A stretch of 64,000 nt of DNA from Arenicola marina (taxonomy: Eukaryota > Annelida > Polychaeta > Arenicolidae), in assembly GCA_964019135.1 (NCBI GenBank), contig OZ025265.1, positions 24,465,143 through 24,529,142 on the forward strand. The letters run 5' to 3'. Shown here one piece after another: positions 18,866-44,701 of this stretch. Within the stretch, counting starts at the first letter, position 1, and each line of letters opens with the position of its first letter. The notes beneath the pieces are model-generated. The model searched no databases and was not told the origin of the DNA. It saw only the letters and a list, made by a program, of their open reading frames with translations. A program made the translations under genes and the position numbers.

Positions 18866-19115
18866 GGGCCGTATTCATAATCCCCTCGTAAGTTACGCAC
18901 GAAAAGTGCGTTGTCGTCTTAGCCTCACCAGCTCGTTGTGGTGGTGCTTATGATTAAGAATTCTTCTTCAATATGATTTTAGCACTTTCCTAATTCAGAA
19001 AATCCACTTCTTGGGTGACTACTTATGTATTTTGAACCCGATAATCGCTCGACAAATCTTCCACTTAGCGCTAAGTCTAGTGGCGTAGCCTAAGTGGCGA
19101 TTATGAATACGGCCC
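18866..19115. mobile_element. MITE family 1, copy 1 (250 bp), flanked by CAG/CAG
   Basis: Perfect terminal inverted repeats GGGCCGTATTCATAATC at both ends. Flanking trinucleotides are CAG (18863-18865) and CAG (19116-19118), consistent with a 3-bp target duplication. No transposase is present. It is a close relative of 40288-40518. It lies exactly at the left edge of the 18-bp minisatellite. Confidence 0.85.
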
Positions 19116-19690
19116 CAGAACTCCAACGGCAGCCACAACTCCAACGGCAGCCACAACTTCAACGGCAGCTACAACTCCAACGGCAGCCACAACTCCAACG
19201 GCAGCCACAACTCCAACGGCAGCCACAACTCCAACGGCAGCCACAACTCCAACCACAGCCACAACTCCAACCACAGCCACAACTCCAACGGCAGCCACAA
19301 CTCCAACGGCAGCCACAACTTCAACGGCAGCCACAACTCCAACGGCAGCCACAACTTCAACGGCAGCCACAACTCCAACGGCAGCCACAACTCCAACGGC
19401 AGCCACAACTCCAACGGCAGCCACAACTCCAACCACAGCCACAACTCCAACCACAGCCACAACTCCAACGGCAGCCACAACTCCAACGGCAGCCACAACT
19501 CCAACGGCAGCCACAACTCCAACGGCAGCCACAACTCCAACGGCAGCCACAACTCCAACCACAGCCACAACTCCAACCACAGCCACAACTCCAACGGCAG
19601 CCACAACTCCAACCACAGCCACAACTCCAACCACAGCCACAACTCCAACCACAGACACAACTCCAACGGCAAATACAACTAAAACGACAA
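19116..19690. repeat. 18-bp minisatellite, about 30 units
   Basis: The unit 'caactccaacggcagcca' and its 'accacagcc' variant fill about 570 bp without losing phase. One frame reads Gln-Leu-Gln-Arg-Gln-Pro repeats, another Thr-Thr-Pro-Thr-Ala-Ala (mucin-like). All frames are open because the unit is a multiple of three, so coding status cannot be told from this alone. Confidence 0.9.
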
Positions 19691-19793
19691 CCACAATACG
19701 TACCATATTGAAGGGGTACCCCTTTAATTATTTAAGGGATATCCTTAAATACTTAAGCAATACCCATTAAATATATTCTCATTAAATATAAAT

Positions 19794-23754: not shown

Positions 23755-26700
23755 ATGAACAGGGTCCTAAGCAGGGGGTACTTGCCTTCCCTTGAACGGT
23801 CTCTTACGAAAAGAGGACCGTTCTGTGCTCTACAATATCGAGATCGACAACGGCAAAGAACATTTACATCAGTGAGACTTGCTGTAACAGGAAAGCATCA
23901 TGCCTTCTTCAATTTTAAGCCGATGACTGATTTCACCAATTCAAGATGGGCAAAGTGTACCCCCAACCGACAACTTGCAAGTAAGTTTGATGTTCCATGT
24001 GTATAGATATATATTACTTGTATTTTCACGCTTTTTGTGTGTTGATCTTGAAGGATTATAATGTAATAAACGCTTTAATTTTACTGTAAATTCTTCCGTA
24101 TTAATCGTTACTCACAAGCTGTGACTGATTGCAGTTTATATCAAGTGCGTAACACATCTTCCGTTTCTAGATATTTGCTATGCACACAGTGTTTTGATAA
24201 AACTATTTACTCCTGACACTGACGGATTACACGAACGCAGTTTAACTATCTACAGGGCTTGGTCGGCTAAAGTTACGATGTAAAACGATTTCAGCCCACT
24301 AAGCCCCGTAGCCGGCTAAACTGTGTACGTAAAATAGGTCACAGTGCTTACATTACTTTGACGAAATTATTATGGTTATTCTTGAAGGTACCAGATGCAT
24401 AACCACCTTGCCTGGAAAAAGAGTGTCCCTAGTCATCTTCGACAAGGATGGCACTTTGTCCTGTTTCGGCACCGGGTGGACAGATTGGATTCGAAGGTAT
24501 ACCCGCAGGTAGGTCGAGCTTCCGATAATGTCTCTGCCACAGAAATGTGTCCTTTATTTCGTAATTAACATTAGACACTGTCATTGTTTCATAATATGCT
24601 TGTGTTAAGATAAGCCTGTGACATATGATAAGGCCTGGCTTTGTGGTGTGTGGTTCAAGGTCAAACACGCAAGGATAAGTACCGCTTATCCCACGGTAAC
24701 CATGCCATTTGGGGCATGCCGTTTGGTATTATAAAACCAATCGATGTGCCATGCGATAAATATAGGCCATTAATTTTGTCATCCATTTTTTTATTTTTTT
24801 TATTTTCACACAATTGTGACAGATTTTAAGGTATCATGCAAGTGATAGGTGCCAGATAGCGTAGCGGGGCCACAGTGTCAAGTGTCAATTTCTCAAAATT
24901 CATGGTGTCCACTGTAGATGTTTACGGTGTCGCTGTCAGATTTTGGAGAAACTATAGCAAAACTGTCGGTGTCTAATTTTTCGGTGTCAAAAATGTGGAT
25001 GCCGAGGTCACGTGTCGCCAATGACCTCTTTTTTGAAAACAAATGGGGTACACGTTCAAACAGCTTTAGTTTGTTGTCGAACATCATATTTCCATGTAGG
25101 TATCTCACGAATAACGTGTTAACATATATTTTCACAAAGCATTGAAGAAGAAACGAATGTGGACGGCTTGGCAAATCGGCTTATGCTGCTCCTTGGCCTC
25201 AACCCAGACACCAGCGAATGGATCGAGGGGCTTTTTTGTGACGTCAACGACGTTATCCTGAAAGAGATTTTCGCCTTTCTCATCGCCGAGGGAGTGCGAC
25301 CGGAACTCGCAACAGCAATTGTGGCTCGTGGGGTGAATCCCCCGGAAAACGAGTTCGATTCAATTCAAGTCAAAGCCCTCGGGGATCCAGTTTCCGTGGT
25401 GAAAGCTTTGCGGGCTTTCGGCGTTCGCGTTGCGGTATGCACCACCGATTCCCGACCTACCGCAATGGTGACGCTGGATGCCCTTGGTGTCAGCGGCCTA
25501 ATGGACATCATCGTATGTGGCAACGATGAAAACGTGACACCAAAGCCTGATCCCGCAAATATAATCCGGATTTGTTCCGCGTTGGGAGTGGATCCGAAAG
25601 AATCCATGATGGTAGGAGATGGCCACAGAGACATCGAGATGGGAAAGTTAGCCGGGGTCAAGGTCACAGTCGGGGTCACTTCCGGGGTGTCTTCTGAGGA
25701 GCAGCTTCGTGGCTATGGTTGTGACTACGTCAGACCCTCCATCGACGCCATATTGGATCTCGCGTTGCCGCCTGATTTCCGTGAGACTCTCGCGAAGAGA
25801 CATACCCACTCCAAGGGCAGTAATGGGCACTTACCAACATCCGGCAATAGTTATCGCAAATATTCCACTCTTGCTCACGGTGCGACAGCCTTACGCAACG
25901 ACCCGAGAGTTGCGAACAAATCAAATGAAATACGCACAATGTCACTGCCATCGCCTCGCAGTCTTCAAGCGAGGGAATTGACGACAGCGCCTCTAGCGGA
26001 GAGCTCTGCGGTTGACTCATCAGAGACCAAGGAGTACGATTACGTCATCATAGGCGCCGGATCTGCTGGCTGCGTGTTGGCGAATAGGCTGACAGCTGAC
26101 GGTGAAAACTCTGTGCTGCTGCTGGAAGCGGGTCCGGAAGACTCATCCTGGATGTTCCAGATGCCGGCCGCTCTGATGTACACCCTGAAGGATCCGGTCT
26201 GGAACTGGTGCTATTACACGTCGCCGCAGAAACAACTCAATGAGCGGCCGATGTATTGGCCTCGCGCCAGGGTCTGGGGCGGGTGTTCTTCCCACAATGC
26301 CATGGTGTACATCCGGGGACACGCCCTGGATTATGACCGTTGGCAAGCAGAGGGCGCCACCGGATGGTCCTACGCGGACTGTCTGCCGTACTTCAAACGT
26401 TCCGAGACCTTTGAACTCGGCGCGGATGAATACAGGGGCGGTGACGGCCCGCTGTGCGTATCCCGCGGCAAGACAAATAATCCGCTTTTCGACGCCTTTG
26501 TCGAGGCAGGAATTCAGGCGGGTTATCCTTACACCGAGGACGTCAATGGCTACCAGCAAGAAGGATTCGGGGCATACGATATGACGATTAATAACGGCAC
26601 CAGAAGCAGTACATCAAACGCCTATCTTCGGCCAGTGCTGTACCGGCGGAATCTGGATACCACCACATTTAGTGTCGTAAACCGGATTTTGTTCGAGGGA

Positions 26701-27690
26701 TCCAGGGCCGTAGGTGTGGAAGTCAAACGCCATGGATCCGTGCGCCAGATTCGGGCGACGAAGGAGGTCATTCTGAGCGCGGGGGCCATCAACTCTCCCC
26801 AGATCCTGATGCTGTCGGGGATTGGAAATCCCGAAGATTTGGACCCCTTGGGGATTCCCGTCGTCGCCGAACGTCCCGGAGTCGGTCAGAACCTTCAGGA
26901 TCACCTGGAGGTGTATGTCCAGTACGAGTGCAGCAAGCCTATCACGCTGTACAGCTACCAGTGGAAGTTCCCGCTCAATATGATCCAAACTGGACTGGAG
27001 TGGTTCATGTACCGGACCGGCAATGCCGCGACCGCCCACCTGGAGGCCGGCGCCTTCATCCGGAGCCGCTCCGGGTTAGCACACCCGGATGTCCAATTCC
27101 ACTTCCTGCCGTCGGTCGTTATTGACCATGGCCAGAAGACGGGTCACTGCCACGCCTTCCAGATCCACGCGGGAACCCTGCGAGGCACCAGCCGCGGCTG
27201 GCTCAAGATCCGGTCACGTGACCCGGAAGTGGCCCCCATCATCGAAGCCAACTACATGGCGACGGAAGCGGATCGGGAGGACATGCGGCAGGCGATCGGC
27301 CTCGCCAGGGAGGTGTTTGCACAGCGGGCGTTCGAACCGTACCGCGGAAAGGAAATCCAACCGGGACCCGGGAATAGATCAGCAGACGACATCGACGCGT
27401 TCATTCGTGCGCAGGCCGACTCCGCCTACCACCCGTCCTGCTCGTGCAAAATGGGTGCTCCTGACGACCGGATGTCGGTGGTGGACCCAGAATGTCGGGT
27501 GATCGGGGTGGAGAACCTGCGCGTCGTCGACTCCTCCGTCATGTCTAGTTGTATCAGCGGCAACCTCAACGGCCCGACCGTCATGATAGCGGAGAAGGCG
27601 GCCGATATAATTATGGGCCGCATGCCCCTGCCACGGAGCCAGGTGCCCGTATGGAAACCCAAGGACTCGTCCACTCAGCGAGGTCATTAA
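23755..27690 (+). CDS. CHDH: HAD phosphatase-choline dehydrogenase fusion, mitochondrial, three exons, 965 aa
   Basis: Exons 23755-23980, 24388-24508 and 25140-27690 join in phase (1, then 2) with GTAAGT and GTAGGT donors. Exon 1 (about 75 residues) is Arg/Lys/Ser-rich and lacks acid at its start, as in a mitochondrial presequence. Exons 2-3 hold a HAD hydrolase: motif I FDKDGTL (D94, D96), motif II VCTTDS (about 217), motif III PKPDP (K251), motif IV VGDGHRDIEMG (D276, D280). A GMC oxidoreductase follows from about 413: GAGSAGCVLANRL, VWGGCSSHNAMVYIRGH, GAINSPQILMLSGIG, and the probable catalytic pair H880 (YHPSCSCKMG) and N926 (SGNLNGPTVM). Its closeness to human CHDH continues to the C-terminus. 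CHDH oxidises choline to betaine aldehyde at the inner mitochondrial membrane. The HAD-plus-CHDH arrangement is not the human one. The last exon holds the whole GMC domain without introns. A GTATAC donor 12 bases earlier in exon 2 would keep the frame. Confidence 0.9.
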
Positions 27691-35159: not shown

Positions 35160-35352
35160 AACCCCAGTCACACTTCAATAGGGTCACATGATCAGTCTCG
35201 TTCTGCCTGCTTCAGCCACACTTCAATAGAGTCACATGATTAGTCTCGTTTTGCCTGCTTCAGCCACACTTCAATAGTCACATGATCAGTCTCGTTTTGC
35301 CTTCTTCAGCCACACTTCAGTCGAGTCACATGATCAGTCTCGTTTTGCTTGT
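35160..35352. repeat. La exon 12 array: 45-49-bp units repeating the stop-codon region
   Basis: Four copies of 'ccacacttcaatagagtcac' plus 'atgatcagtctcgttttgcc'. On the gene strand each unit carries the last La codons (Ala-Lys-Arg-Asp-stop) and the sequence after them. The genuine exon end (35334-35353) is the rightmost copy. Confidence 0.85.
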
Positions 35353-38300
35353 TTCGCCGGACGACCAGAGTCATCGTTGCTGCCCCTCTTCCACTGTAAA
35401 CATAGCACATGTAACACAATATAATGATACAGTACAACAAACGAAAGTCACTTCAATGTTGGGTTGATGAATCAGACGCTAATTCGCTTTGCGAAAGTTT
35501 CATCTAATCTCTGTTATGATGTCGCACATGCATTGACAAGTCTTAGCGCCTCATGAAGTAAATGTGAAAGTCAATATTATATGTACGTTTTAAGACATTA
35601 ATTTGATAGTACGGTACACAACAAGGGGTTAGTTATGTTTTTATCTGGTATTTGAGAAAGAAAGTTTTGAATCATTGGCCATTTGGGTTAGTCATTTGAA
35701 CAGGCACAACATTGACCGCTTATTCCAATGTTTGTTCAAGAGTGCGGCGTCATGCTTCGAAATATTACGGTATCTAATTGGTATTAAATTGAGTCTTTAA
35801 TCGGAATATCGCGGTATGCCCCTAAGCTGCTAACTTATATTGTGTATTTTATTCGCAATATTACGGAATGACCCACACGCTAACTTGCAGTGTCTCTTTA
35901 ATTGAAAACATAACGGTAGGACCCAGTAGACGCCTACATAGTGAAATATGTCGATGTTCGATGATATTTCGATATAAGACCGTTGTGTCTTAGAATCGGA
36001 CTATTACGGTATACGCCTTTGAATAATTAACTTATATTGTCCTTATTCGAAATATTAGGCATGCCCTATAGATTTCTAACTAATGTAATAACTCATATTG
36101 TGCCTTCCATTCGCAGTAGTACGGTACGCACCGTGGGGCGCTTGAAGTTACCCTTCCGCCTCTGTTTGTCGCCTTGTGACCTCTTCTTCTCGCGAGCGTC
36201 CTTCCTCGTCCGGAAGATGTTCCTCCAGTGATCCAACTCCTCCTCGCCTGGAGCAACAACAGAGGGCGCAGTTAGACATTGATCAGCTCACCGCTCATAC
36301 TCAATCAAAACAATGCTGACGCACTGCGTCACAGTGGTAGCTGTTTTGTCGAAGTGCAAGCATATCTCACTACTCACTTCTGATGGAAACTTGCAGAAAA
36401 CGTTAATGCCTTAAATGGTACATTAGTATCATTTTAGTGCTGAGTAACATATATTTAATGACCCTCTAGCACACCGCACTCCAGGGTCCCCTCCCCCCCC
36501 CACCCACACACAAACTCACCGTCCAGGGGCCAGTTTCACGAAGCCTTCGTACGTGAACGAACCTTCGTACGAAGATTGTGACCCGTAAATCCGGTTTCAC
36601 GAAGCCTTCGTACCTCTAATTAACATAAGATACATCGTAGGTTCCTTCGTACATCTACGAGTGCCTCGACCCTATCGTACACCCTTCGTACCAGCATAAG
36701 GACACACATTTCTGTCTACGGTATCTGTGAAAGTTGGAGTCGTTGCTACGTTACTTATAAGGTCAAAATCCATCCAAAATATTCAGGACGGCAAAATGCG
36801 AGTATCCTAGCAACGGTCGCATGACGCCTTGGACATTATGAATATGGGTTGAAACTGCACAAATTATATACAAAAATTACGCGAATTAATATTGTTGGCA
36901 ACGGCAAAAACACTAGATTTATGCAAAAGCTTACGTCAAAGGCCCTTCTTCGATTCGATTAAATGTTTTCATGGAAAATTTCATGCATTTATCACATGCG
37001 CATTAGTACTTCTTTCACTTCCGGCGTTAAAAAATATGGTACGAAGGTTCGTACGATGGGCTTTAGCCATACAAAATACGAAGGAGGTACGAAGGCTTTG
37101 TGAAACGCACGTACAGTTCTCGTACGAACCTTCGTATATGAGCTACGTGTAACGTACGGTGGGAAGGTTTCGTGAAACTGGCCCCAGCACACTACACTCC
37201 AGGGCTCTCTCCTTCACCACACCCCCTCCCACACACACACTCACCGTCCAGCACACTACACTCCAGGGCTGTCTCCCCCGCCCCACCCCCTCCCACACAC
37301 TCACCGTCCAGCACACTACACTCCAGGGCTGTCTCCCTCACCCCACCCCCTCCCACACACACACTCAACGTCCAGCACACCAAACTACAGGGCTCTCTCC
37401 CCCACCCCACTCCCTCCCACACACACACTCACCGTCCAGCACACTACACTCCAGGGCTCTCTCCCTCACCCCACCCCCTCCCTCCCACACACACACTCAC
37501 CGTCCAGCACACTACACTCCAGGGCTCTCCCTCACCCCACCCCCTCCCTCCCACACACACACTCACCGTCCAGCACACTACACTCCAGGGCTCTCTCCCT
37601 CACCCCAGCCCCTCCCACACACACACTCAGCGTCCAGCACACTACACTCCAGGGCTGTCTCCCTCATCCCACCCCCTCCCACACACACACTCACCGTCCA
37701 GCACACCACACTACAGGGCTCTCTCCCTCACCCCACTCCCTCCCACACACACACTCACCGTCCAGCACACCACACTCCAGGGCTCTCTCCCTCACCCCAC
37801 CCCCTCCCACACACACACTCACTATCCAGCACACTACACTCCAAGGCTCTCTCCCTCACCCCACCCCCTCCCACACATACACTCACCGTCCAGCACACTA
37901 CACTCCAGGGCGGTCTCCCTCACCCCACCCCCTCCCACACACACACTCAACGCCCAGCACACTACACTCCAGGGCTGTCTCCCTCACCCTACCCCCTCCC
38001 ACACACACACTCACCGTCCAGCACACTACACTCAAGGGCTCTCCCCTCACCCCACCCCCTCTCACACACACACTCACCGTCCAGCACACTACACTCCAGG
38101 GCTCTCCCCTCACCCCACCCCCTCCCACACACACACTCACCATCCAGCACACTACACTCCAGGGCTGTCTCCCTCAGGATCACTTTGCCGTCGCCTGCCT
38201 CCTGCGCCTTCTTCAGGGCTTCCGACGCGCTGTCCTCACCGTCAAAGCGCAGTGTACCCTGGGATATACACAACACATACATCAAACAATGTCCCAAGAT

Positions 38301-41300
38301 TCGGATTCAGGAAAGAGCAAAAATTATATCCTGTTGGAATTGGCCCACGATTTTTTTTTTCATTCTATCAATCCGGACGTTCACTGTATCAACACCGTAT
38401 AAACGCTTTCATTAAAGGTACCGTCGCGTCATTATTACCGTAAAATAGTATTTTGTGACTTAACGTTTGTTTTCATGTTCAAAATGATGCAGATACCAGC
38501 AAAAAAGAATATCGGGGTTAACCGTCTCTGTGCATGCACGGCCAATCCCTTACTCGGTTTCATAATATTCATAATAATATCCATCAGGTAAATGTGAAAC
38601 AAATCCCAGACGCGGATGCCAATGATAAACCAGCTTCGCGATAGACTGCCTAGGCTCCTTGGGATATCGACACCACTGATGAAATGCAATAATATGAGTC
38701 CGTGTTTTAGGCCGCCAGGATTCGGCAAAATTAACCTCCCGGGACGATAAAGGAACCATGCCCCAGATTAGGCAGGTGCCCAGCCCGGCTTCGATCCATC
38801 ATCTGACCTAATGATCTGCGGTCTAGTGCGCTAACCACTAGACCAGAGAGGCCCCCAGGACCTATTGATCTACCGCCTAGTGCGCTAACCAATAGACCAG
38901 GGAGGCCCTGAAAATGCGGCCCGCCTATCCACTTGGCCCACCTCTTTGTCGCCCTTGTCGAAGTCTGCCCAGGCCACCTTGCCGTGCTGGGCGAAGAACG
39001 ACTTGATCTCCTCTCTGTCCACGGTGTCCTCCACGATCCCTCCGAACTTTAAGATAGCACCCTTCGTGATACGCTTGCCAAACTCCTAGGTAACAAGCAA
39101 TGATCAACATTGAAATTGCGTTCCATAGACAATTATATCATATGATACATTATATAAGTGACAGTACAGTGCAAGTCGTACAAGGCAAGTTACAGGGTGG
39201 ATCTCAAGTAAATTTCTAATTCGCAGTTCTAAATCCACGATCTAATGCGATTATTTTCAGTGAGAGAAGCATTTTAACTATGGCCTATGTTCAATAATAT
39301 AACATAATTTACAGCAAATTGATATATACATATTTTCCTTGGAACCCGAAAGTGAAGCACTTTATGCTACGACACAAGTTGAATTACAACTGCTTTATAA
39401 TATAATATGGCTGAACTCTTTACCTCATTCTCCTCTGCTTGTCGCTGCACTTTGACACTAAAAATGAAATGAAATAAAATACTATATGTAAATTAATGCA
39501 ATATTGTATAAAAGAAAGCTTCAGAACATACATCATATGATGTTACGTTGCAGATGGGAGCCCCAAAGCATGAGGATATACCGCCACTTCAAATGATAGG
39601 TCTCCATTCAGCATACTCAGTGGGTTAGAGCGCTCGCATTGAGAGCCTAATGGCAAGTGGATCGGTGGTTCGAGTCCCGCTGTGGTGATGTCTGTGCATA
39701 AATGCAAAGCTGTAAGCTTTTTAGAATTGTACGCCAGGGTTTATACTCTGTGTAATCGGTTTTCTGCTTTAGGATAAATAAAATCTTCTCACGTTAGACG
39801 CAACATCGGGAAAACCATTTCCAGGTACACTTATAGTATAAGTGCCAACATTTAAGTACACTAGCCGCCCCGCTCGCCGGAAGTCTACCGTAAGCGTACA
39901 AAGTAACAGTATGTCAGTAGCTGGGCCCGCTGCATGCACCAGCAGCCGCCTTGGATGCGTCAACAATGTCGCTGGGTGCTTATCGCTTATCCCACATGGT
40001 GACCATCCAAGGCGGGCGCAGCGGCTGCATAGGTGGGACAAGCGGACAGCTTCATTTTATTAGTACCGTAAACTGCCTATTTGAAGCCGCGGCTCATATT
40101 AGGAAGTTGTAGGCTCCACTTTCCGGGTTTGAGTCGCAAGTCAGGGTGCGGCTTTAAATAGGGCCTTTTGCCGATTACATGTACATATTACAAGTCATGT
40201 TGATATTACGAATATTCACCATAAGCTTGAAATGCTATGCCGAACATAGACATTTATAAAAGGTAAGACTTTTAAAGACGGACCTTGGGGCCGTATTCAT
40301 AATCCCCTCGTAAGTTACACACGATAAGGGCGTTTTCGTCTTAGCCTCGCCAGCTCGTTCTGGTGGTGCTCATGATTAAAAAATCGTGTTCAATATAATT
40401 TTAGCCCTTTCTTAATTCCGCAAATCTACTTTTTGGATGAATAATTATGTATTTTGAACCTAATAATCGCTTGAAAAATCTCGTGGCGTAGCCTAAGTGG
40501 CGATTATGAATACGGCCCCAGGTCACTTCATAGCAAGGGGAACTCACGCCTCTTTCTTCTTCAATTCCTCTTCACGGTCGCGTTTCTTCTCATCCAGCTT
40601 CTTCTTGAAATAGTCATCCCTGGAAAACAATTCAGGACGCTTCACTTGAATACAAATCGAACCCAGGATAATGACATCGGTTTGGCTTGGCGACAGTTTC
40701 AGGTGACACGGTTTGAGCCTATAACAGTGGTTGTCCAGTGTCCAGTGTCGATTTTTCACGACGTTTCGTGTCGCTTATTGGCTAGGTTCAGTGTCTTTTT
40801 TTCTAAATGGCACTGTCTGTGTCAATGTCGCTTTGTCAGTGCCGGAATTTGGGGGTCGATGTCGACTTTCGATCCTTCAAATATGCCCGTGTCGCCATTT
40901 ACCCTTTCCAGACCCCTCATAACAAGTTGCTTTGCAGCCCAACCCGCTTGCTAATTGAATTGACGGGCTCTAGGGCGAACAGAACCGTGTTTTAAATACC
41001 ATTGAAGCACTTACTTGAGAATTCGGACGAGGTCACCCTCCTCGAACTTGGCGTAGTCGTCCTCGCTTAGGAACTTCTTGGCGCCCTCGACGTCATTGTA
41101 GACAACGAAACACGAACCCTGGATAAACGCAAGGAAATCAAACAGCTCAACGCGACGTAAACAGCCCAAAGTACAAAGGAAGGACAATCACGATTGGATA
41201 ATAAAAATCTTGGTGTTTTAGGCTTTTGTACACGTGAAGGCTAAATTGGGCCAAGATCAGATATAAAACAAAATCGATCATTATTAGCAGAAACGCATGG

Positions 41301-44300
41301 CGCAAGTGGAATGATGGTCTGCGACCCCGGAGCTGTAATAATCCTAAAGCACAAACACTGAGCTCAAGATGGTGTGATCTGAAGCCGGGACCCGTATAAA
41401 ACAACTTGGCTTTCTCTCGCGTGCGTACCTTGGTTCTAATAACGGTAATCACTTTCAATCGACAACGCAAACATATTAGTACAGTATATAGCAAGAGAGA
41501 AGTTACCAGCGTCACATACCTTGAACTTGCCCTCTATGTCCTTCCTCATCTTGACCTGTTCAGTGGTACCAGCCTTCTCAAAGAACTCTATCAACGTGTC
41601 TAGGGTTTGATCTACAGGAAAGCCTTTCTGCAAAGTATCAAATCAACAGTGTTCACTATAGGTAAGATATTCAAAGATCATGCAAACACAACTAGTTTTT
41701 TAACATAATTTATTTTCTGAGGTTTGCAACAACGAATTCACATGTAAATACTCACATCGTAAACATAGTTCATTTGTGTAAGAACGTAACGTAAAAGGTA
41801 CCAGTAATTGTTAAGCAAGAACATTGTTACACTTGAAGATATGTTATATACAGAGTGCTAACTATCATTACCGGTAGTGACGGTATCGACACTGTAAAAA
41901 CAAAACGGAACCGCTGACAATATTACTGTTAGATCATGCTTCTATGAAGTTAACAGTAATAACAGTGCTGAGTGGTAAAACATATGTTTCACATTAAGAT
42001 GGTGTATATTAAGATCATTTGGGTTAGTAATTAGAAACAAAACAACAAATATGTTCATGCAGTTTCATTTTAGCTAAGAGCCCTGGGTATGGATTTTTCG
42101 GTAATTCAGCCCAAAACGTACCTCATTAATAGATGCATGATAAATCAGACGCAGCAATGAAATGATATGTTAATGTTCTTGTCCGCATTTGCAGACATGA
42201 AGGCCAAGCAACCTCCCGAGACAATGACATTGGGTTGGATAAATCTTGCCCAAGATGCCAGTACCTGTGTTAAGAGCCCACGATCACTTGATCTGCAGCC
42301 TAGCGTAGCTTCAAATGAGCTACGGGGGCTCCAGGTCGGGCGATAAACTGAGCCAGTAAATCTCCCGGCAAAACGACTGCGAAAGATCTGTGAAATAATC
42401 TCCAGGGTCTGATACCGTTCAAGTGTCCTACCCTCGTCTCCGGCTCTGAAGCTACCAGCGAACTGAGGCACGGACGCTCATGGGCAAGGAAGATTTGATG
42501 TTGGTTGGTTGGTTGTATATTCAGGACGCTTTAGCCACTTTTGGCCATATGGCTTCAATGGTAGAAGGGCGGGAGAGTGGAGCCATGTCCCCGGGGGTAA
42601 CCCCCGACTCTTTGCGAACGAAACACATGGGGTCTTTATCCTGCGACAACACAGACATGACCACAGCGGGGCTCGGACCACCGATCGACGTGCCGTTAGG
42701 AGGAGTGGATGGTAACTTACCACGTACAGGCTGCGCGCTTTGAGGAGTGGATGGTAACTTACCACGTACAGGCTGCGCGCTTTGAGGAGTGGATGGTAAC
42801 TTACCACGTACAGGCTGCGCGCTTTGAGGAGTGGATGGTAACTTACCACGTACAGGCTGCGCGCTTTGAGGAGTGGATGGTAACTTACCACGTACAGGCT
42901 GCGCGCTTTGAGGAGTGGATGGTAACTTACCACGTACAGGCTGCGCGCTTTGAGGAGTGGATGGTAACTTACCACGTACAGGCTGCGCGCTTTGAGGAGT
43001 GGATGGTAACTTACCACGTACAGGCTGCGCGCTTTGAGGAGTGGATGGTAACTTACCACGTACAGGCTGCGCGCTTTGAGGAGTGGATGGTAACTTACCA
43101 CGTACAGGCTGCGCGCTTTGAGGTCATCCTTGCGTTCCTTGGTGTGGTCTGGCATCGGTTTGTCGGGGGATCGACGGATTTTCTTACCCTCCTCATTCAC
43201 CTGCAGATCAGTGAGAGTGTTACTTTCATATCTGGCGTCCATGAATTTATTATGTATGCGGTATAGGTATGAGTATCGTATATTCCTATGATTACAAGAT
43301 GTAGCAAAGATTGCAACCAAACAGTAAAGAGTGGAAGTTTAATTCAGCAATGGTAAAGAGAGATATACTTACATTTACAGAATCTTTTTCATATGTTAAC
43401 AAAATGAGGTAAAGTAACAAAATAAAGAACATACATTACCGTTATATATAAATATATGTCTAAAATAACTACAAACAATACATGTATGCTTGCACGGATT
43501 GATATGTCAACAGATAAAATTATTCAATATGTTCATACAAAAGTGTTGTGATAATTTTACCTCAACTAAGCCAGATGTCGACTTCTTTATGGCAGTCGTC
43601 AACACTTCAAAATCTTCTGACAGCGTCTTCAGCCTGTTGAAGGTTATCATGACGTCTAGAGAAACCCCTGTGGAGCTAGGTTAAGGACTGTCATAATCGT
43701 GTTTCAGACCGCCTTTGTGCACAAGGGCTAAATTGGGCCAAGGAACCTCCCACGGACAATGGAGACTAAATGGATGGAACATGCTCCAGGTTACGTGCTC
43801 GGGCCCAGACTCGAACCCAAGACCCATCATTTTGCGGTCTAACCACTGCACCAGAGAGGCACCCCCTCCCTACTTACTCTATTGATCTGAATTGAATTGC
43901 ACTAGCCATTACACCAAGGAACCCACCGCCTTCTTATCATAACCAGTGCTTAGGTGTTTCTTCATATTCGGTTGAACACTTGGAAGTACCGGGTACTATT
44001 TATCTATGGTTACACAGTAAACTTTGTTGGGAGATAATTGGGTATAACAATCATGTTAAAGTCGCCATGTTTAGGATACACCCTTCATCTTCCTTGATCT
44101 TCTCTTGCAGAAACTTGTCTCTTGCAAGGTTCATATCTCCAAAGTAATACTGCAATGAGAAATTTCAGTTCAGCACAGCTTTCCTAAATGCTTAAACTTG
44201 TACGCATGTGGCATACCAGGTAAAAAAATTAATTCAGAATTATGAGACAAATGATATTTTTAACAATCCACCCACTTGGTTGGGGTCTTATATTTGATCT

Positions 44301-44701
44301 TAATTAAGCAGCAATAACCAACACCTAGATATATGTGATATAAAAGTGTTTACAAAAAAAGTCCTTCTTTATCTTTAAATCATGAACTACCAGTAGATGA
44401 AAATTCAAGGCAAACAGTGGACATAAATTAACGCCTCTCTCTAATGTGTTGGTTGATTAAATAAGTAGGATACTTTAACTGCCAAGGTCAATCGCAACAA
44501 AGGGCAGGGTTAAGGTAGAGAAGAGCCATGTCTCTGGAAGTAACCGCTACTCTTTACCAAAGACATAGCATGCCTCTCTCAAATTTTGAATAGGTATGCA
44601 TAATTTAACATAACTTTCCTATGTCATATACATACCTCTATCTGCTTGATGATTTTCTTCTCAAGGACTGAAGGACCATCATTATTTTCTTCATTAGCCA
44701 T
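35334..44701 (-). CDS. SSB: La / SSB, RNA-binding La protein, twelve coding exons, 366 aa
   Basis: Minus-strand exons: 44701-44636, 44149-44080, 43667-43561, 43200-43099, 41627-41520, 41118-41015, 40619-40548, 39457-39424, 39085-38942, 38258-38141, 36247-36132 and 35393-35334. Every phase matches, 1101 nt in total. Domains: La motif (about 16-92; [18 protein letters not shown], then [14 protein letters not shown]), RRM1 (about 111-186; [31 protein letters not shown]), a charged linker ([20 protein letters not shown]), RRM2 (about 228-305; [35 protein letters not shown]) and a basic tail ending KQAKRD. La binds UUU-3'OH ends of RNA polymerase III transcripts and protects them; the basic tail is a likely nuclear signal. 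An acceptor TTGCAG before the start codon (about 44722) shows a spliced 5' UTR. Exon 2 to exon 3 needs a U12-type intron. The ends of exons 4, 10, 11 and 12 are each amplified as tandem arrays. Human La is 408 aa. Confidence 0.93.
35755..36131. repeat. La exon 11 array: old, degenerate 45-90-bp repeats starting at the splice donor
   Basis: About seven copies of a motif like 'attcgaaatattacggtat', several followed by 'ctaacttatattgtg', at 35757, 35803, 35861, 35902, 35993, 36039 and 36110. The last copy includes the GTGCGT donor of exon 11. Divergence between copies is high. Confidence 0.6.
36486..38165. repeat. La exon 10 array: 56-70-bp units, about 17 copies, each with a splice donor
   Basis: The unit 'cactcaccgtccagcacact' plus 'acactccagggct' and a C-rich stretch recurs from 36486 to 38165, interrupted at 36527-37184 by a MITE. 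On the gene strand each unit copies the exon end (codons for CSVLD) and a GTGAGTGTGTG donor. The real exon end at 38141 is the rightmost copy. Unit lengths vary and are often not a multiple of three. Confidence 0.92.
36527..37184. mobile_element. MITE family 2 (658 bp), CAG target duplication, inserted in the La exon 10 array
   Basis: Perfect TIRs GGGCCAGTTTCACGAA at both ends. Flanking CAG at 36524-36526 and 37185-37187; removing the element and one CAG restores the array unit 'accgtccagcacact'. The interior is rich in 'cttcgtacgaa'-type palindromes and the left TIR block is partly repeated near 36594. No transposase. Confidence 0.9.
38690..38912 (-). repeat. tRNA-derived SINE (family B), reverse orientation, with a duplicated head
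   Basis: 'gcgctaaccactagaccaga' (A-box complement) occurs twice, at about 38829 and 38882, each followed by 'gaggccc'. The B-box complement 'ggcttcgatccatcat' is present once. It lies in the La intron directly beside exon 9. Confidence 0.7.
39594..39770 (+). repeat. tRNA-derived SINE (family A) head and part of body
   Basis: A-box 'actcagtgggttagagcg' and B-box 'ggttcgagtcccg', followed by 'tgatgtctgtg'. In a La intron, opposite to the gene. Confidence 0.75.
40288..40518. mobile_element. MITE family 1, copy 2 (231 bp)
   Basis: Same ends as 18866-19115 (GGGCCGTATTCATAATC inverted) and a clearly related interior ('gtcttagcctcgccagctcg', 'gtggcgtagcctaagtgg'). Flanks are TTG and CAG, so a target duplication is not preserved. 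In a La intron. Confidence 0.88.
42503..42706 (-). repeat. tRNA-derived SINE (family A), head cut off at the La exon 4 array
   Basis: Tail 'ggttggttgtatattcagg', body 'agtggagccatgtccccggg' and 'tctttatcctgcgacaacac', B-box complement region near 42670, then the head stops abruptly at 'gccgttagga' where the 42-bp array begins. Confidence 0.82.
42700..43128. repeat. La exon 4 array: ten identical 42-bp units, each an exon end plus splice donor
   Basis: The unit 'gaggagtggatggtaactta' plus 'ccacgtacaggctgcgcgcttt' repeats ten times with no visible difference. On the gene strand each unit reads LKARSLYV followed by a GTAAGT donor, then VSYHPL if read through. The unit is 14 codons without a stop, so all ten donors are in the same phase. 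The array covers the last 29 or so bases of exon 4 and the start of its intron. Confidence 0.95.
43668..44079 (-). other. U12-type intron of La (intron 2)
   Basis: Donor GTATCCTAAA directly after exon 2, branch-site-like TCCTTAAC about 13 bases before the CCACAG acceptor. With these sites the split codon gives Trp in GWVSLD, as in human La (GWVPLE). No major-class GT placement at this spot restores the frame. Confidence 0.8.
43715..43863 (-). repeat. tRNA-derived SINE (family B), reverse orientation, inside the U12-type intron
   Basis: B-box complement 'cagactcgaaccc', A-box complement 'ggtctaaccactgcacca', and body 'gctaaattgggccaaggaac' shared with 9.2 kb. Confidence 0.8.
44449..44575 (-). 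repeat. Degraded SINE body (family A)
   Basis: 'agagccatgtctctggaagt' and 'aaccgctactctttacc' match the family A body with several changes, in La intron 1. Confidence 0.55.

Follow-up and report, generated by a model that had tools for sequence, protein, structure and literature searches.

Tandem arrays spanning exon ends in the La gene and in unrelated genes of the annelid Arenicola marina

Why should a single gene carry several tandem arrays, each placed where a coding segment ends? The question is raised by the La gene in a 64,000-nucleotide stretch of the Arenicola marina genome (contig OZ025265.1, positions 24,465,143 to 24,529,142), hereafter the window. A preliminary description of this stretch proposed that exons 4, 10, 11 and 12 of La each run on into a tandem array whose unit joins the last bases of the exon to the sequence behind it, that these were independent events, and that such arrays select exon 3' ends. 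We find that boundary arrays recur outside La, in several unrelated genes, and that exon 3' ends bear more arrays than uniform placement would give them, on modest numbers. The reading we prefer, to which we give a probability of roughly 60%, is that they are 'mirage'-type minisatellites, generated by slippage at microhomology and tolerated as decoding stops at the first copy.

The La gene and the arrays at its exon ends

The La gene comprises 12 coding exons on the minus strand, spanning 44701 to 35334, which when joined encode 366 residues followed by a stop codon. The protein contains La, RRM_1 and RRM_3 domains, the first RNA recognition motif (RRM) occupying residues 113-171, and its residues 2-345 align with the Lupus La protein of the PDB, presumably the human one, with an E value of 2e-81. 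Searches for RNA families and tRNAs yielded none in the 64-kb window at the thresholds used. The exons of the joined-exon gene model are placed as follows.

44636..44701, minus strand: La coding exon 1
44080..44149, minus strand: La exon 2
43561..43667, minus strand: La exon 3
43099..43200, minus strand: La exon 4, its last 25 bases being the first copy of a 42-bp array
41520..41627, minus strand: La exon 5
41015..41118, minus strand: La exon 6
40548..40619, minus strand: La exon 7
39424..39457, minus strand: La exon 8
38942..39085, minus strand: La exon 9
38141..38258, minus strand: La exon 10, its 3' end being the first copy of a 64-bp array
36132..36247, minus strand: La exon 11
35334..35393, minus strand: La exon 12, coding part with the stop codon

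Tandem Repeats Finder (TRF) places 19 arrays in the window, four of which overlap or touch La (42700-43123, 37184-38176, 35165-35355 and 38805-38908). These four are listed below, together with a decayed array and an inserted element.

42700..43123, minus strand: array A, 42 bp x 10.1 copies, 424 bp, 100% identical; exon 4 end plus GTAAGT in each unit
37184..38176, minus strand: array B, by TRF about 64 bp x 15.5 copies with 90% matches; exon 10 end plus GTGAGT
36526..37185, no strand assigned: element of 660 bp whose ends are inverted GGGGCCAGTTTCACGAA, lying within array B
35753..36126, minus strand: decayed array C, seven copies of a motif of about 50 bp, the first at intron base 6 behind exon 11
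35165..35355, minus strand: array D, 48 bp x 4.0 copies; last codons, stop codon and 3' flank of exon 12
38805..38908, overlapping the minus-strand gene: intron 9 array, by TRF 1.9 copies, away from exon ends

Array A shares with exon 4 the exon's last 25 bases, which the donor GTAAGT follows, and its edges have in common the 4-base microhomology CCTC, which fits a duplication between short direct repeats. The unit of array B is composed of the last 26-30 or so bases of exon 10, GTGAGT and about 30 intron bases, and GT has been lost in 3 of its 14 scored copies. Since the 660-bp element lies inside this array, with a further unit on its far side (about 36465-36525), array B seems older than the insertion. 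The element resembles a miniature inverted-repeat transposable element (MITE). Array D sits at the end of the coding sequence, not at a splice donor. At the end of exon 11, TRF finds nothing even at a score of 30; what adjoins this donor is a degenerate motif, first recognisable at intron base 6, that occurs seven times from 36126 down to 35772 at spacings of 44-93 bp (self-alignment scores 45, whereas the highest of 30 shuffles reached 24).

The proposal of four arrays built on exon ends is thus borne out by TRF for exons 4, 10 and 12 and unconfirmed in its stated form for exon 11; where three donors and one stop codon had been implicated, the gene has two donors spanned, one donor abutted and one stop codon spanned. 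The independence of these events is upheld: length, sequence and divergence of the unit vary from array to array. Where an array spans a boundary, the functional boundary is its first copy, and later copies lie in the intron or the 3' flank; beyond the repeats, intron 4 runs on for about 1.1 kb past array A, and intron 10 for about 0.2 kb past array B, before the next exon is reached.

The unit of array A is an open reading frame of 14 codons, so that splicing at the last donor would insert nine extra copies into the first RRM, within which the exon 4/5 joint falls at La residue 115. The alignment to the Lupus La protein crosses both the exon 4/5 and the exon 10/11 joints with no gap or insertion, which indicates that use of the first donor makes La; homology therefore supports the exon-proximal donor as the one probably used.

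Boundary arrays in other genes and their frequency at donors

The matches listed for contig C1 place at least six tandem GGTAAGT arrays within its first 1.09 Mb, and three of the six start exactly at an exon end (L009, L068 and L070:2006-3030). L009 holds an ALDH1L exon, and another such exon, in L059, has a donor array at its end too; the peptides of both exons match solved ALDH1L1. Giant arrays with 46-bp and 63-bp units occupy C1:637527-644937 (L038-L059), between these two ALDH1L exons. The exons of L068 and L070, both with donor arrays, are predicted from an open frame and splice signals; Pfam gave no match for the predicted exons in L068, L070 and L007, and one match below the cut-off in L069. 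The other three of the six were rejected as donor arrays: no exon was seen at L008, nor at L070:3031-5000, whose array continues through L071, where the consensus is ATAAGT and GTAAGT is a minority variant; in L069, GGTAAGT lies on the strand opposite to the predicted exon, and the array reaches the acceptor of that exon. At L007:2077-2507, a 59-bp array of 7.3 copies repeats an acceptor together with 30 bases from the start of the predicted exon behind it.

To set a frequency on such cases, we used a sample chosen by protein family, regardless of repeats: 46 of the 49 exon matches to PF00118 (CCT/Hsp60), three matches in long open frames being left out (C5:36718893, C10:11072973 and C10:11073324). 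The exons were read with about 280 bases on each side, in 37 stretches totalling 31,777 bases, in which TRF (score 50, period of at least 10) detected 18 arrays. Three of the 46 were taken as terminal exons (L090, L091 and L103), leaving 43 donors, and the boundaries are partly assumed. Arrays occur at 5/43 donors, 2/46 acceptors and 1/3 stop codons. Four of the donor arrays span the junction (L083, L087, L089 and L110) and the fifth starts at the donor's first base (L084); both acceptor arrays are in L088, the second having a short exon overlap and a rearranged unit, and the stop-codon array is in L091. The remaining ten lie elsewhere (L085, L092, L096, L101, L103, L106, L107, L109, a second array in L091 and a second in L089, the last ending just before the exon start); the L103 array among them lies 20 bases past the stop codon of its exon. 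Four of the boundary arrays (L087, L088 twice and L089) fall in what is apparently one gene on C17, so several boundary arrays in a single gene are not peculiar to La. Units that combine exon with adjoining intron are now found at La exons 4 and 10, at both ALDH1L exons and in L068, L070, L083, L087, L089 and L110, and the arrays of La exon 11 and L084 adjoin a donor.

The flanks, 23,839 bases in all, contain ten arrays whose units average 51 bases, a density at which roughly 0.9 donor arrays would be expected among 43 donors. Five donor arrays against an expected 1.0 give P = 0.004, and the four spanning ones alone P = 0.021; against 1.5, a figure that allows for the short flanks, the corresponding values are 0.019 and 0.066. 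On these modest numbers, the earlier suggestion that arrays favour exon 3' ends beyond chance holds up. The stricter idea that exon 3' ends alone are chosen does not, as arrays also touch acceptors in L088 (twice), L007 and L069.

Across the genome, tandem motifs were counted against their reversed forms. Three tandem copies of GGTAAGT gave 30,039 matches and their reversed form 13,253 (2.3-fold), and tandem CAGGTAAGT gave 3,707 (781 and 2,926 on the two strands), as against 439 (8.4-fold); the acceptor-like TTTCAGG, at 2,234 against 2,480 (0.9-fold), was not enriched. Because totals of this kind are governed by large arrays, as the unequal strands of CAGGTAAGT illustrate, distinct arrays were counted as well: the matches listed comprise 5 for CAGGTAAGT, from C1 up to 46.1 Mb, and 2 for its reversed form, from C1 plus 42.8 Mb of C2, a 6.5-fold excess (P = 0.02). 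The equivalent comparison for GGTAAGT at the start of C1 (at least 6 arrays in 1.09 Mb, against at least 7 reversed in 10.9 Mb) was discarded as overstating the effect, since this region is array-rich and also holds three control arrays. Taken together, a donor bias of the arrays is likely but not secure.

The junction also tends to lie near the middle of the unit. In an exploratory comparison, on a mixed sample with La among its genes, exon sequence makes up 0.38-0.61 of the unit in 10/11 donor arrays and 0 in the eleventh, L084; clustering near one half gives P = 0.007 against a uniform expectation, or 0.017 with ten arrays. The exon share is 0.53 and 0.51 in two acceptor arrays and 0.31 and 0.60 in two stop-codon arrays.

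How the arrays may have arisen

Under the preferred reading, the founding unit would be a segment of 25-120 bp that straddles a boundary of gene structure. Slippage or end-joining between short direct repeats, such as the 4-base microhomology seen at array A, would first duplicate the exon end with the start of the intron, and unequal exchange or further slippage would then amplify the duplicated segment into the intron. Splicing would take the exon-proximal donor, as homology suggests, and translation the first stop codon, leaving the further copies non-coding and presumably tolerated; the duplication would be silent because the first donor and the first stop codon are the ones used. Such a tolerance filter would purge most arrays inside exons and would weigh more on acceptors and starts, which would explain donors and stop codons jointly and make acceptor arrays possible but rarer. 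Such arrays are common in this genome, and donors seem to hold more of them than uniform birth would supply; exon 3' ends may thus be favoured by some additional bias.

Several points weigh against this reading and against the donor bias attached to it. Slippage and a filter leave the excess over deep introns unexplained, and random slippage does not predict an exon share clustered near one half. The difference between donors and acceptors is not significant (5/43 against 2/46, P = 0.19), and the expected donor count is a rough density taken from short flanks. A few giant arrays dominate the match counts. Of the five CAGGTAAGT arrays among the matches listed, one (C1:1094676) is part of the L071 array, at which no exon was seen; once the array-rich opening 1.1 Mb of C1 is set aside, the distinct arrays listed stand at 3 against 2 (4-fold, P = 0.13). 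Stop-codon and acceptor arrays do not fit a purely donor-linked cause.

We offer tentatively, as a somewhat unlikely one, a bolder version: a boundary-centred process may duplicate segments of 25-120 bp that surround coding-segment ends, several per cent of all donors carrying a growing array with the junction in mid-unit. Arisen independently of amphioxus, such a process would lengthen introns throughout the lineage and might also supply alternative donors.

Chance in a repeat-rich genome, with minisatellites arising uniformly and some of them overlapping exon ends harmlessly, is a somewhat unlikely account. Arrays are dense (the 64-kb window has 19; the sampled exons and flanks, 31.8 kb, have 18); acceptors and stop codons are hit too, and the start of C1 holds control arrays beside the donor ones, the CAGGTAAGT excess losing significance once that region is removed. 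Uniform placement is at odds with 5/43 donors where 0.9-1.5 were expected, and with the 8.4-fold enrichment of tandem CAGGTAAGT beside an acceptor motif that shows none.

That same asymmetry between donor and acceptor motifs is what a donor-centred mutational process would produce, in which R-loops, polymerase pausing at bound U1 or conflict between transcription and replication seed the duplications. The mid-unit position of the junction in donor arrays points the same way, as do intron arms that are G-rich on the sense strand in several cases (La exon 10, L083, L084, L089, L110 and L059). We consider this process doubtful: the stop-codon units (La exon 12 and L091) and acceptor units (L088 and L007) are similarly centred on boundaries of other kinds, and the units of La exon 4, L068 and L070 are not G-rich.

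Selection for donor redundancy, also raised in the preliminary description, would keep arrays at exon ends as a store of spare donors. GT is intact in 91/91 ALDH1L copies and in 38/38 L070 copies, and in ALDH1L no more than 2 of 31 nine-base windows, the donor's own included, have mismatches as few as those of the donor window. Columns unchanged elsewhere are likewise frequent, however, at 14/39 in the ALDH1L array and 16/27 in the L070 array; the donor window is unremarkable in L070 (12/19 windows as low in mismatches) and in La exon 10 (37/56 as low), leaving ALDH1L, of these three arrays, with its donor among the most conserved windows. The loss of GT in 3/14 copies at La exon 10, together with the homology that favours the first donor, argues further against it. 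In our reading, any selection for spare donors is weak; it is weakly supported at best, and we regard this explanation as improbable.

Equally improbable is the idea that an exonic proto-splice site was once duplicated in tandem to give birth to the intron and that the arrays are what is left of this, an origin proposed for the amphioxus mirages in the accessible parts of PMC3087553 and paralleled by reports of intron gain through tandem duplication elsewhere. Stop-codon arrays cannot be intron births, and about 1.1 kb and 0.2 kb of other intron sequence follow arrays A and B; in La introns 4 and 10, the exon sequence does not come directly after the duplicated unit, as such a gain would have it. 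An assembly artefact from collapsed or expanded repeats might be suspected from the ten identical copies of array A, and is very improbable given the diverged units of other arrays (mean mismatch 3.5-6.7% in those of ALDH1L, L070 and La exon 10) and the 660-bp element within array B.

Relation to known boundary repeats

The founding paper on 'mirage' minisatellites is reportedly that of Canestro and colleagues in 2002, and Cuin and Porter are said, by the title of their 1995 paper, to have described a minisatellite with multiple splice donors, which we take to be that of the human interferon-induced gene 6-16 (G1P3/IFI6). In 6-16, as here, a splice donor is repeated by a tandem unit; that case concerns one locus and, as far as its title tells, provides multiple donors, whereas in the present genes the first donor is apparently the one used. 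Intron gain by tandem genomic duplication, in the portions of that literature available, shares with our cases a tandem duplication that involves splice sites, but it makes new introns, whereas here existing boundaries multiply and the intron stays one.

In amphioxus, minisatellites that span exon-intron boundaries are termed mirages (PMC3087553, as far as its available text goes), and the accessible accounts report them in Adh3, globins, troponin C and PGBD5 (PMC3087553, PMC3902484). The arrays described here resemble them in having units of exon end plus adjoining intron, in affecting several genes and in occurring at both 5' and 3' boundaries; the amphioxus units are given as 10-160 bp, with normal splicing reported (the available parts of PMC3087553 and PMC3902484), the repeats having left splicing undisturbed in the available account of PMC3087553. 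Our arrays differ in their annelid host, in a measured share of donors and in the presence of stop-codon arrays, which those accounts, in the parts available, do not mention. Within annelids, the minisatellites of earthworm metallothionein genes also lie inside an intron, but the available part of PMC12783039 tells of repeats in the first intron, not of units made from an exon end.

Mirages could have been a trait of cephalochordates only, an idea set aside by the annelid-like mitochondrial gene order of the host. On one strand this order is nad4L-nad4-nad1-nad3-nad2-cox1-cox2-cox3-nad6-cob-atp6-nad5, where cox2 was named by eye, nad2 by its place and shared family, and nad6 from a match below the Pfam cut-off. 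The order agrees with the annelid mitochondrial ground pattern. The genome search turned up no match to the GFP family, although it does not establish absence. Five kinesin matches on the small contigs C390, C504 and C536 contain internal TAG and TAA codons and no TGA; these contigs look ciliate-coded and are possibly foreign DNA in the assembly. Within the window, an 18-bp unit repeated 32 times at 19115-19696 is open in several frames, and an 855-codon open frame without assigned identity lies on the plus strand at 25123-27687.

We found no account of boundary arrays in an annelid in the literature consulted, mostly open papers, which is weak evidence of novelty. The structure is of a known kind; what is new is its recurrence in a second phylum, the form that spans a stop codon and a probable donor bias on modest numbers. 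In the available parts of the literature found, amphioxus genes were the place where boundary-spanning arrays had been a curiosity. Exon ends that bear such arrays can be mispredicted by annotators, and their presence in unrelated genes of a second phylum makes the cause testable, be it transcription, donor strength or the tolerance of splicing.

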